IMG/VR virus record: IMGVR_UViG_3300044843_000284
Coordinates: 1 to 34,859 of that record
From: a virus
DNA length: 34,859 bases
Strand: one strand, 5' to 3'
Position 1 is the first letter of the stretch, and every line of letters starts with the position of its first letter. The position numbers and the translations under genes were made by a program. Under the pieces are notes generated by a model. The model searched no databases, was not told the DNA's origin, and was given only the letters and a program-made list of their open reading frames with translations. Below are positions 6,078-15,055 of this stretch, piece after piece.

Positions 6078-7058
6078 TCACCCTTTCAAGGTCACGGTAA
6101 GGCGCTCGGACGCTGCGCCGATCGTTTCGAACGGCGAGAGGTCGATTCCGGCCTTCGCCACCGCCTTCCTGTCCAGGGAAGCGCGGCCCTTCACCGTCTG
6201 CAATTCAACAACGTAATCACCTACGGTAAGCTCATTCGTATTGCGCTGCTTAAGCTGGCGCGTGATTTCTTCCTTGTTCTGGCGCTGCTGCGCCTCAAGG
6301 TCTTCGATCTGCCGCTTGGCCGTGGTGTAGGCCAGCACGGCTGCGTCCATGCCAGACCCCCGGTTAGCCCGGCGCACGCGATCAGGATCATCAACCACCA
6401 CGCCGCAGACTGCGGTGAAGGGGCAATACTTGCAGTCCAGCCCGGTCATCCGGCCTTCACGATCGATGTGATCAACGACCTTTGTGGTGAGCAGCTTGTG
6501 GGCGCGGGGGGCCAGCTTGGTCAGGATATCCGGGTCGCGCTCGATATAGAACTCGTGAATGTCATTCAGGTTGCTGGCATTGACGTACACCAGCCACACG
6601 CCCTGCAGCGGAAGCTGGCGCTGCTTGATCATCAACTCGGCGGCGATCTGCGCCTGAACCGTGTGCGCCTTCTTCGGCAGCTTATTGGTGTTGGTGCGAG
6701 GATCGAAGCTCTTAATCTCCAATCCGTACCAATCGCCATCGATTTCAAGCGCCCCGTCTGGCGTCGCCGACATGCGGGTGTCGTCATCCGCAAGCGATTC
6801 CTGATCTTCGCCCGCAAAGGCCAGAGAGATACCAGGGGCCGCTCGCAGCGCCCGCACAACATATTCCTCGACCATCTTGCCACGCCTTGCAAAGCCCCAG
6901 TCCTGCGGGGCCGCGTCGTCGGGCTGATTGCGCTCATACCAAAGTTTGCGCAGGCAATCGAGCGCCTGGGAAGAGGGAAGGTACTTCATACGGTCGATGC
7001 TGAAGACCGCTTCTCCAATCTTGTCGGCTCCCGCCAGCAGGGCCTGCTTGACGCTCAT
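6078..7058 (-). CDS. Cas4/RecB-like PD-(D/E)XK nuclease with probable Fe-S cluster
   Basis: A 326-residue exonuclease. The nuclease core is visible: GKMVEEYV helix (61-68), ATPDGALEI with D101, GLEIKSF with E114 and K116, and a following QAQIAAELM helix (Q135/Q137). Four cysteines, C35 (ALDCLRKLWYE) and C209, C212, C218 (LDCKYCPFTAVCG), match the arrangement that holds a 4Fe-4S cluster in Cas4 and AddB-type nucleases. A coiled coil (about 255-285) and a beta-rich tail follow. No CRISPR or other cas gene is present, so the role is likely DNA end resection in phage recombination or replication. It overlaps the methyltransferase gene end by 4 bases. Confidence 0.88.
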   Translation of the reverse strand: MSVKQALLAGADKIGEAVFSIDRMKYLPSSQALDCLRKLWYERNQPDDAAPQDWGFARRGKMVEEYVVRALRAAPGISLAFAGEDQESLADDDTRMSATPDGALEIDGDWYGLEIKSFDPRTNTNKLPKKAHTVQAQIAAELMIKQRQLPLQGVWLVYVNASNLNDIHEFYIERDPDILTKLAPRAHKLLTTKVVDHIDREGRMTGLDCKYCPFTAVCGVVVDDPDRVRRANRGSGMDAAVLAYTTAKRQIEDLEAQQRQNKEEITRQLKQRNTNELTVGDYVVELQTVKGRASLDRKAVAKAGIDLSPFETIGAASERLTVTLKG

Positions 7059-7966
7059 TTCGTTATCTCCATGTAGGCGGATATCACTTCTGCCGCAACT
7101 TGCGGGACAATGGCGTTACCATAACCGCGCAGTCGTCCCACTCGGTTGGGTACCCCATGAGCCAGCGGGAATGTGCCGGGTTCAACTGCCCGCCACTTTC
7201 CATCCAGGCAGAAAAGCCAGTCAGCAGATCGCCAGTGACCGTTAGGCGGACCTGGGACAGGAGCGCAACTTGCTGTGACAGCGGAATCCCCGTATCCTGG
7301 GGGCGAGGCGGCGCTACTCCCCGACTGTGGTCCTGCGCCATCGGGGTGCACCAACCCGACAACTGCGTGAACACTTCCTCTGACAGGGACTTGCCCCTCG
7401 CTTGGCTTTCCCTGGACGCCAGATAGCCCTTCGATGCAGTCGCGCTCTTGTAATCCAGGGTGGGGGGGGCGGGCCACCCAATAAAGGCGCTGTCTGATGT
7501 GCGGCGCACCGATGCCCGCAGCGCAGAGATCGACCGCCGCGCTGGCGTAGCCCGTTCCTTCCAGATCATCTTGAACAAGGTCGAGCCAACCGAGGCCGTC
7601 CTTGCTTGCAACCTGCTCACCAAAGACGACGCTAGGGCGGCACTGGCTAATGAGGTGGTGGAAGTGGGGCCAAAGGTGCCGCTCGTCAGAAAACCCGCCT
7701 CCTTGGCCTGCCGCGCTGAAAGGTTGGCAGGGGCAGCTTCCAGTCCAGACAGGTTTGTCGTCCGGCCACCCAGCGAGACGCAGGGCGTAGGACCATCCAC
7801 CAATTCCGGCGAAGAAATGGCATTGGGTGTAGGGTTTGAGGTCATCTGGATGCACATCCTCTATCGATCTGGTATCAACGTCGCCGGGCGCAATGTGCCC
7901 CGCAGCAATCAGGTTACGCAGCCACTGTGCGGCAAATGGGTCTATCTCGTTGTAATAGGCGGTCAT
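7055..7966 (-). CDS. DNA cytosine-C5 methyltransferase
   Basis: A 303-residue C5-cytosine methyltransferase. Motif I is FFAGIGGWSYALRLAG (SAM binding, 51-66). Motif IV is GSCPCQPFSAAGQ with catalytic C80. Motif VI is GEQV with E117, where most family members have ENV. Motif VIII is IRQRLYWVA, and motif X is GYGNAIVPQVAAEV near the C-terminus. The stretch before motif X would be the target-recognition region. No restriction endonuclease gene is adjacent, so it looks like an orphan enzyme that marks phage DNA against host restriction. The coding sequence also contains a long second frame (7084-7845), described separately. It overlaps the neighbouring genes by 4 bases at both ends. Confidence 0.95.
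   Translation of the reverse strand: MTAYYNEIDPFAAQWLRNLIAAGHIAPGDVDTRSIEDVHPDDLKPYTQCHFFAGIGGWSYALRLAGWPDDKPVWTGSCPCQPFSAAGQGGGFSDERHLWPHFHHLISQCRPSVVFGEQVASKDGLGWLDLVQDDLEGTGYASAAVDLCAAGIGAPHIRQRLYWVARPPHPGLQERDCIEGLSGVQGKPSEGQVPVRGSVHAVVGLVHPDGAGPQSGSSAASPPGYGDSAVTASCAPVPGPPNGHWRSADWLFCLDGKWRAVEPGTFPLAHGVPNRVGRLRGYGNAIVPQVAAEVISAYMEITK
7084..7845 (-). CDS. Overprinted protein nested in the methyltransferase gene (+1 frame, 253 aa)
   Basis: A 253-codon open frame on the same strand as, and wholly inside, the methyltransferase gene, shifted by +1. The product is Ser/Thr/Leu-rich and carries blocks I recall from separately encoded phage hypothetical proteins: ARQAKEAGFLTSGTFGP, SLVSRLQARTASVGSTLFKM, and the C-terminal GGQLNPAHSRWLMGYPTEWD ending in LSRKLRQK. 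Because such proteins are known outside this overlap, the frame may be truly translated. A start at the ATG at 7845 (MTSNPTPNAISSPEL) has a weak AGAGG about 12 bases upstream; an ATG at 7857 is also possible. Function unknown. The alternative is an open frame maintained only by the GC-rich codon pattern of the methyltransferase. Confidence 0.5.
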   Translation of the reverse strand: MTSNPTPNAISSPELVDGPTPCVSLGGRTTNLSGLEAAPANLSARQAKEAGFLTSGTFGPTSTTSLASAALASSLVSRLQARTASVGSTLFKMIWKERATPARRSISALRASVRRTSDSAFIGWPAPPTLDYKSATASKGYLASRESQARGKSLSEEVFTQLSGWCTPMAQDHSRGVAPPRPQDTGIPLSQQVALLSQVRLTVTGDLLTGFSAWMESGGQLNPAHSRWLMGYPTEWDDCAVMVTPLSRKLRQK

Positions 7967-8289
7967 GCGCCCCCCTGTTCACGTTGCCGATCAAGGATCA
8001 TCACCGCCGTCCTAGCGTATCCGCCGATGTCAATCCAAGAATCCAGATGCCCAGGGCTGGTACACAGGCGGGCCATCTTCACCGAGATCATTTCCAGAGC
8101 GTGCCTGATGAGCGGATCAGGGCACGCCCGCAGCGCGTCCTTGATCTGGTGGGCAATCGCGAAGTCGTCAGCCGGGTGCCCGTAATCCTTCCCGCGCTCT
8201 TGGGTGATGCTCCGCATCCGCGTGTCGAACTGCGCGACCAGCGTAAGCGGGCCGAAGGTTGCTGTGATGATTTCGTCTTCGATGTTCAT
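7963..8289 (-). CDS. DUF6378-like phage protein (108 aa)
   Basis: A 108-residue protein with the pattern SITQERGKDYGHPADDFAIA, then MISVKMARL and SWIDIGGYARTA, characteristic of the phage proteins grouped as DUF6378. Their biochemical role is not established to my knowledge; helical folds of this kind resemble all-alpha nucleotide-processing enzymes, and metal-binding His/Asp residues (DYGHPADD) would suit that, but this is inference. The gene overlaps the helicase stop and the methyltransferase start by 1 and 4 bases. Confidence 0.8.
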   Translation of the reverse strand: MNIEDEIITATFGPLTLVAQFDTRMRSITQERGKDYGHPADDFAIAHQIKDALRACPDPLIRHALEMISVKMARLCTSPGHLDSWIDIGGYARTAVMILDRQREQGGA

Positions 8290-14271: not shown

Positions 14272-14329
14272 ATTGCGCGGCGGAATCGCACTACCTACCC
14301 GCATCAAGTCGGTTCTGTGTTATGGCGCA

Positions 14330-14379
14330 TTGACAGTAGCCCAAAACGGTGTATTGTGGTGTCTACACGGTTACACAAT
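14330..14379 (+). promoter_or_regulatory. Recombinase promoter with nested inverted repeats
   Basis: TTGACA (14330-14335), a consensus -35, is followed after 16 bases by TATTGT (14352-14357). Starting at the -10 are nested inverted repeats: ATTGTG (14353-14358) with CACAAT (14374-14379), and GTGT-ct-ACAC (14359-14368). A bound dimer would cover the start of transcription, so this promoter is probably repressed under some conditions. Confidence 0.65.
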
Positions 14380-14389
14380 GGAGGGCCAT

Positions 14390-15055
14390 ATGACTGTTTA
14401 CGGATATTGCAGGGTGTCCACTGATCGACAGGCGGATGAGGGCCAGAGCTTGGGGGCGCAGCAGCGGGCTATCGAGGGTTATGCCATGATGTTAGGGCTT
14501 TCGCTCGGGGAGGTCTTCATCGAGCGCGGGGTGTCTGGGGCGAAGCCCCTGACAGACCGACCTGAGGGGGCCAGATTGCTGGATGCCTTGCAGCCGGGTG
14601 ATTCCGTTATCGCCGCCAAACTCGACAGGATGTTCCGTAGTGCTGCGGACGCATTGGCTGTATGCGCACAGATCAAGGAGCGCGGGGTTAGCCTGCACTT
14701 GATCGACCTCGGGGGGGACGTTACGGGGAACGGCATCAGTAAGCTGGTGTTCACGATCCTGGCCGCCGTGGCCGAAGCTGAACGCGAGCGCATCCGTGAG
14801 CGCGTGGTGGACATGAAAGCCGACCAGAGAGCGCGGGGGCGGTACCTGGGCGGCAAGGTGCCCTTTGGGTACATGGTACAGGATGGGGAGTTGAGGCCCG
14901 TTCCCGCCGAACAGCGGGTGATCCAAGGCATTCTCGATATGCACCAGCAGAACCATAGCTTGCGCAGGATTGCGGCATGGTGCGAAACCATGACCTACCC
15001 CCTCACCCACATGGGCGTCAGCAAGATTATAGCCCGCCACTTGCCAAAAACTTAG
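14390..15055 (+). CDS. Small serine recombinase (resolvase/invertase family)
   Basis: A 221-residue site-specific recombinase. The catalytic domain shows YGYCRVSTDRQ with the nucleophile Ser, IAAKLDRMFRSAADAL with the conserved Asp/Arg pair, and AVAEAERERIRERV of the long helix E. The C-terminal part (GKVPFGYM, VIQGILDMHQQNHSLRRIA, MGVSKIIARHL) is a helix-turn-helix. It is shorter than large serine integrases and is the only recombinase in the window; it may integrate the phage, resolve multimers or invert DNA. Start: ATG at 14390 after GGAGGG. It has its own promoter and lies between a terminator and a perfect inverted repeat. Confidence 0.92.
   Translation: MTVYGYCRVSTDRQADEGQSLGAQQRAIEGYAMMLGLSLGEVFIERGVSGAKPLTDRPEGARLLDALQPGDSVIAAKLDRMFRSAADALAVCAQIKERGVSLHLIDLGGDVTGNGISKLVFTILAAVAEAERERIRERVVDMKADQRARGRYLGGKVPFGYMVQDGELRPVPAEQRVIQGILDMHQQNHSLRRIAAWCETMTYPLTHMGVSKIIARHLPKT

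Follow-up and report, generated by a model that had tools for sequence, protein, structure and literature searches.

Overlapping reading frames in a phage methyltransferase gene

Does the DNA of one phage methyltransferase gene encode a second protein, and if so, what does this protein do? The question is raised by an IMG/VR virus record, 34,859 bases long, which is referred to here in its entirety as the window. It contains a gene for a cytosine-C5 methyltransferase chain, which we call alpha. Wholly within this gene, in the frame one base ahead of that of alpha, lies an open reading frame whose product we call beta (Table 1). Beta is 257 amino acids long from its first ATG (7857) and 253 from its second (7845), with the stop at 7084. 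No Pfam family was found for beta. The two PHROGs that it matched, phrog_1008 and phrog_31772, are both labelled 'DNA methyltransferase'; these families hold the nested beta protein, and the label was probably taken from the overlapping gene. Annotation pipelines choose either the alpha frame or the beta frame.

The gene pair is surrounded by a replication module with a DNA polymerase, a RecE/Cas4-type exonuclease, a helicase and a primase, and no restriction endonuclease was found among the neighbouring proteins that were scanned. Next to alpha, a 108-amino acid ORF (7963-8289, minus strand) matches PHROGs labelled 'phosphofructokinase' (6e-15), a doubtful label for so short a protein. Further along, a serine recombinase-like protein (14273-15055, plus strand; integrase and invertase PHROGs, 1e-47) adjoins a terminase small subunit-like ORF.

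Table 1. Features of the alpha/beta locus, with positions in the window.
Feature	Position	Strand	Basis
Alpha: C5 cytosine methyltransferase catalytic subunit, 303 aa, motifs I-VIII and X, without IX	7055..7966	-	PF00145 1.6e-12, phrog_363 1.8e-91, AlphaFold model
Beta: nested +1-frame ORF, proposed small subunit (target-recognition region and motif IX)	7084..7857	-	phrog_1008 5.9e-26, phrog_31772 9.5e-24, stop depletion, amino acid conservation
Candidate ribosome-binding site AGAGG, adjoining first beta ATG, 12 nt before second ATG	7858..7862	-	sequence
Alpha motif I (HFFAGIGG)	7796..7819	-	conserved columns in relatives' alignment
Alpha motif IV, catalytic Cys (PCQPFS)	7715..7732	-	invariant in relatives' alignment
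Alpha motif VI, FGEQVAS replacing ENV, catalytic Glu kept	7604..7624	-	G-E-Q-V invariant in relatives' alignment
Alpha motif VIII (GAPHIRQRLYW)	7478..7510	-	relatives' alignment
Alpha residues 176-241: no structure predicted, little conservation, DNA evolves as beta frame	7244..7441	-	pLDDT, codon-position profile
Alpha motif X (RLRGYGNAIVPQVAAEVI)	7082..7135	-	relatives' alignment; model helix 288-302
Beta residues 70-117: helix and beta-hairpin (includes SRLQARTASVGSTLFKMIWKERATP), over alpha motifs VI-VIII	7507..7650	-	confident part of beta model; beta identity
Beta residues 127-222: variable, W-x-T-P-like modules (GWPAPPTLD, GWCTPMAQD), proposed target-recognition region	7192..7479	-	mostly more conserved than alpha in same DNA
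Beta residues 223-244: motif IX (GQLNPAHSRWLMGYPTEWDDCA)	7126..7191	-	hhalign to ShiLan gp70 single-chain group and canonical IX-X regions

Selection on both frames

Synonymous codon shuffles of the window's alpha gene gave an expectation of 4.4 stops in the +1 frame, and none was observed (P about 0.003). An unbiased set of homologues was obtained by pulling 80 IMG/VR loci (a lower bound) with the alpha protein only, a query that avoids selecting loci for an open +1 frame, and 55 genes remained after dereplication. Their +1 frames contained 17 stops versus 210 expected from synonymous shuffling within each gene, whereas the +2 control frame contained 772 versus 644 expected. The 253-codon frame over the methyltransferase gene that was described in an earlier note on this DNA is thus real and better supported than was claimed, and frequent +1 stops in relatives were not seen. 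In a wider sample, the stretch between alpha codon 95 and motif IX was scored, and both frames were open throughout in 205 of the 211 scorable single-frame loci, whereas four had a stop in beta and two in alpha; three further scored loci had alpha split over more than one frame.

Amino acid conservation in beta is higher than alpha forces it to be, because beta-frame identity was 0.466 in pairs with less than 62% alpha identity, versus 0.265 (SD 0.002) after shuffling. The third bases of alpha codons tell the same story from the other frame. At four-fold sites, in pairs with 55-60% alpha identity, third-base identity was 0.296 in alpha codons 1-28, which precede the overlap. Inside the overlap, it rose to 0.593 at codons 60-165, 0.733 over the variable region and 0.726 towards the end. 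The flanking genes, taken from these loci as well, gave 0.389 at equal protein divergence; these ORFs were used after the helicase gene had been dropped as external control for having too few homologues. With codons 1-28 and the flanking genes as controls, the conservation of synonymous sites cannot be put down to phylogenetic inertia. Third codon positions of alpha are conserved only within the overlap, and the check on third-position constraint that the earlier note had suggested therefore comes out in favour of dual coding.

Conservation is unevenly distributed along beta. Within the variable region, the alpha codon position that is conserved best is position 3, which serves as position 2 in beta, and the one conserved least is position 1, which is position 3 in beta; the DNA there therefore evolves as a beta-frame gene. 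Beta was more conserved than alpha in 15-codon windows from about alpha codons 173, 188, 203, 233 and 263. Windows over beta residues 70-117 had beta identities of 0.50-0.68 versus about 0.3 expected, and conservation of beta codons 1-45 was hardly above expectation. Taken over the gene, it is near certain that this DNA is dual coding, with both frames under selection.

The start of beta

Start signals for beta are strongly enriched. All 55 genes have, 55-145 nt downstream of the alpha start, an ATG from which beta is open (55/55, versus 53% expected), and this ATG is accompanied by a Shine-Dalgarno match (at least 4, at a usable spacing) in 91% of the 55 relatives, versus 25% after shuffling. 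In many relatives, an Arg-Ser pair in alpha is coded AGG AGC or AGG AGT, which places AGGAG 8-9 nt before the beta ATG. In the window, the first and the second ATG are both candidates for the start. The start seems to be movable, as the first 45 codons show little excess conservation and beta opens only later in N15 and a few others; judging from these sequences, the true start may lie further in. A start inside the gene at about alpha codon 95, where PMG1 has AAGGAG-ATG and N15 has something similar, was rejected as a general start, not being conserved in the 55-sequence set.

Division of the methyltransferase motifs between alpha and beta

Alpha belongs to the C5 methyltransferases, with motifs I, IV (PC), VI (E) and VIII in order (FAGIG, PCQPFS, GEQV and PHxRxR conserved). 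Motif VI, usually ENV, is GEQV in 48 aligned relatives, and the catalytic Glu is retained. A recognition domain was not found in the alpha chain, and no motif IX was seen in frame 0. The PF00145 match stops at alpha residue 165. In the AlphaFold model of alpha (48 sequences), the catalytic domain and the motif X helix are confident, and pLDDT is below 50 at residues 176-221, 223-241 and 265-283, with almost no secondary structure there. Foldseek searches with this model matched M.HhaI, M.HaeIII and DNMT2 over about 165-175 residues only. Alpha is thus predicted by the model to be disordered where the recognition domain should sit.

The motif that alpha lacks is matched in beta, whose C-terminal block, GGQLNPAHSRWLMGYPTEWD, resembles motif IX of C5 methyltransferases. 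The beta C-terminus, GGQLNPAHSRWLMGYPTEWDDCA, has the shape of this motif as seen in RRLTPRECARLMGF from a full-length PF00145 protein (L233) and in RRLTPLECERLQGYPDGY from Yeet gp114. An hhalign comparison of the beta profile with a limited number of IX-X regions, canonical and from phages, gave the motif IX block as its best match (22 columns, E 8.8e-6, a pairwise E-value for a short match, uncorrected for database size, as are the other hhalign values given here). Against the group formed by ShiLan gp70, Upyo 53 and Beemo 84, the pairwise E-value was 1.4e-9, and the alignment to this group ends at RLAPAFSEWMMGWPAGWVT, immediately upstream of motif X. From these alignments, beta appears to be equivalent to that part of an ordinary C5 methyltransferase which comprises the recognition region and motif IX. 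The W.TP...D modules, of which betas in relatives have 0-6 copies, may by their sequence be modular target-recognition units; the alpha frame reads them as LADxD-like repeats. The AlphaFold model of beta alone is weak (pLDDT 61, pTM 0.27) and confident mainly in the helix and beta-hairpin. Foldseek with this model gave no structural match, and neither did a sequence search of solved structures with the beta profile. An isolated half-domain such as beta may not fold by itself.

As alpha is without motif IX and predicted to be disordered where the recognition region is expected, and beta matches motif IX, we consider it very likely, from sequence and models, that alpha and beta are the two halves of one split cytosine-C5 DNA methyltransferase, with beta as the small subunit. 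Alpha would contribute motifs I-VIII, which form the domain for AdoMet binding and catalysis, and motif X, the closing helix. Beta is probably translated by internal initiation, from an ATG and a Shine-Dalgarno sequence of its own, and would supply the N-terminal helix and hairpin, the variable region for target recognition and motif IX. Both chains would then assemble into one methyltransferase that needs both of them and takes its specificity from beta. This enzyme would most likely mark the phage's own DNA against host restriction, a role that we infer from the absence of a restriction enzyme among the neighbours scanned and from what is generally known of phage methyltransferases.

Relatives of beta in phages and bacteria

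A tblastn search of beta against 50,697 phage records matched at least 200 records, at least 138 of them over at least 80% of beta. Among the matches listed, the features under beta were nearly all methyltransferases or hypothetical proteins. The nesting seen in the window was also found in Paenibacillus phage Shelly, Lactobacillus phage Lc-Nu, marine phage KM23 (GC 0.39), Stenotrophomonas phage SOVA965, Tunturiibacter phage Tunturi_1, N15 and K1ind3. These seven distant phages have 0 stops versus 3.9-7.4 expected, in counts that cover the annotated or observed open stretch, which for Lc-Nu and N15 was picked after reading the frame and so favours zero. As a group, five distant betas aligned to the window family with a pairwise hhalign E-value of 1e-19. 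The nesting is conserved in hundreds of phages, where it is usually annotated as a single gene. In KM23 (L143), the annotated features are beta and an N-terminal fragment in the wrong frame, and the real alpha frame (1340-2161) is unannotated.

Scanning GTDB genomes with the beta profile yielded at least 254 relatives. The best 80 of these derive from Gamma-, Beta- and Alphaproteobacteria, relatives of Desulfovibrio and a Phycisphaerales MAG, and in all 80 beta overlaps alpha in the same relative frame. A free-standing beta, without an overlapping alpha, was found at none of these 80 bacterial loci fetched by the beta profile. The free-standing family and the homologues outside methyltransferase genes that the earlier note had envisaged thus did not appear in this set. 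The two sequence blocks quoted there are present in the +1 product, and the separately encoded phage proteins to which they were attributed turned out to overlap a methyltransferase as well: the records of Pseudomonas phage PMG1, Tunturi_1 and SOVA965 annotate the beta frame only, and the methyltransferase is still present in the overlapping frame, interrupted in PMG1. Rare loci have a broken alpha and a beta that is still open (PMG1, or L001; L134; L179), and both frames have decayed in an Arsenophonus endosymbiont (L166); L166 and L179 are among the best 80 loci. A match in Streptococcus phage Javan407 was discarded as a beta relative: the motif match was weak (E=4), lay on the strand opposite the annotated genes and looked like chance.

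The families PHROG 1008 and 31772, the 'Mte8-like protein' of E. coli K1 phages and the 'g55 internal gene' (the annotation of Shelly gp56, its beta) are the same +1-frame protein or clear relatives of it, and none of these labels indicates that the protein is a second subunit whose coding sequence lies inside the catalytic gene. Among the papers searched, none relevant to nested methyltransferase genes of phages was found, and 'Mte8' had one passing mention, which gives no explanation. What is new here is the breadth (phages of Proteobacteria and Firmicutes, and a marine phage), the evidence for a recognition region in beta, and databases filing beta as "DNA methyltransferase".

Comparison with split and single-chain enzymes

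The closest precedent is M.EcoHK31I (YGGCCR), a C5 methyltransferase whose small-subunit gene reportedly lies in another frame inside the large-subunit gene. The proposed small subunit in the window is likewise encoded in another frame of the same DNA. Overall, the likeness is one of motif division and gene layout. M.EcoHK31I (Lee et al. 1995, cited in PMC3404938) consists of two polypeptides, of which the larger has motifs I-VIII and X, and only motif IX is in the smaller (PMC3404938); the same division is found between alpha and beta. However, the recognition domain of M.EcoHK31I is predicted to be in the large subunit (PMC3404938), whereas here none was found in the large chain, and the variable region is conserved in the beta frame and unstructured in alpha. 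The window pair also differs in being phage- or prophage-borne, without a restriction gene among the neighbours scanned.

M.AquI (CYCGRG) is a split C5 methyltransferase of two chains, as proposed for the window pair. Its motif X is in the small subunit (PMC3404938), whereas in the window motif X is in the large chain and beta is nested within alpha. An apparently AquI-like split, into motifs I-VIII and recognition region, IX and X, occurs in Gordonia phage Upyo (54/53) and Mycobacterium phage Beemo (85/84): frame 0 ends after motif VIII, and the +1 frame has the recognition region, IX and X. In Mycobacterium phage ShiLan, gp70 (L145, 1321-2490) is a single-chain enzyme (PF00145 4e-42) in which motif VIII is followed, in one frame, by LLPTPxxxDG modules, RLAPAFSEWMMGWPAGWVTE and motif X (IIGNGVVPQQAA). 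It shares the LLPTPxxxD modules and motif IX with beta and motif X with alpha, but has all parts in one frame. Upstream, gp70 still has a long open +1 stretch (SSWKMW...FSETWPPSGMTRSGAAFELPMSA...LLPTP) that resembles a leftover of the N-terminal part of beta.

Alternative explanations

The earlier note proposed, as one possibility, two unrelated proteins in the same DNA, and named a modifier of the methyltransferase or an anti-restriction factor as a logical role. Two proteins there are, as both frames are selected, and beta very probably acts with the methyltransferase. The data do not support an unrelated protein, however: the beta profile aligns to the recognition region and motif IX of single-chain C5 methyltransferases, and the most plausible reading of beta is therefore as the part that the enzyme otherwise lacks rather than as a separate anti-restriction factor. 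A distinct accessory protein that overprints a complete methyltransferase, for example as a regulator or an anti-restriction factor, would fit the dual coding, the lack of a Pfam family for beta and the helix and hairpin over motifs VI-VIII, for which no counterpart was identified in classical enzymes. Yet alpha is not complete, lacking motif IX and a folded recognition region; beta aligns to exactly the parts of single-chain enzymes that are missing from alpha and was never found apart from it (0/80 loci); and in Upyo and Beemo the +1 frame carries even motif X. We regard an accessory protein as unlikely.

Programmed ribosomal frameshifting from alpha into beta, yielding one fused protein instead of two chains, seems more unlikely still. 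Beta is always +1 relative to alpha and single-chain relatives such as ShiLan gp70 occur, but the fusion would lose motif X, beta is conserved over motifs VI-VIII, well upstream of any useful switch point, and an in-frame ATG with a Shine-Dalgarno sequence is strongly enriched upstream of beta. The least probable explanation, with hardly any chance of being right, is that composition and codon bias of alpha keep the +1 frame open without a product. Blocks such as APHIRQR do impose similar +1 residues, and early beta windows are close to expectation. However, stop depletion, beta identity, and third-base and codon-position data exceed the shuffles, codons 1-28 and the flanking genes, and the codon-position profile already contradicts this explanation.

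Possible origin and implications of the proposed nested split

How a split methyltransferase came to be nested can be proposed only tentatively, with the chances slightly against the following scenario. In a large, old class of phage C5 methyltransferases, dual-coded through the recognition half, two compensating frame changes may have put the recognition domain and motif IX in the +1 frame, while motif X stayed in frame 0. Specificity would then be encoded in the +1 frame, and frame 0 would encode an unstructured passenger linker across that DNA; the actinophage forms in Upyo and Beemo and the single-chain form in ShiLan would be intermediate or re-fused states. The natural series of single chain, AquI-like split and nested split would then illustrate how an overlapping gene can arise without the invention of a new protein.

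If alpha and beta indeed form one enzyme, few same-strand gene overlaps in bacteria and phages would match theirs in length and breadth of conservation, and the second frame would be one with a nameable job. Half an enzyme would then be what has been annotated, and cloned, for hundreds of 'orphan' methyltransferases of phages, and negative results on activity or specificity would consequently mislead.

A similar arrangement was observed in a different, shorter methyltransferase (251 aa) of Brucella daejeonensis (L236, minus strand, 85-837). Here, the +1 frame has a motif IX-like block, TPEQFEFLMGYPIGFTEL, and frame 0 ends with motif X. The sequence suggests that the nesting extends beyond the family studied.
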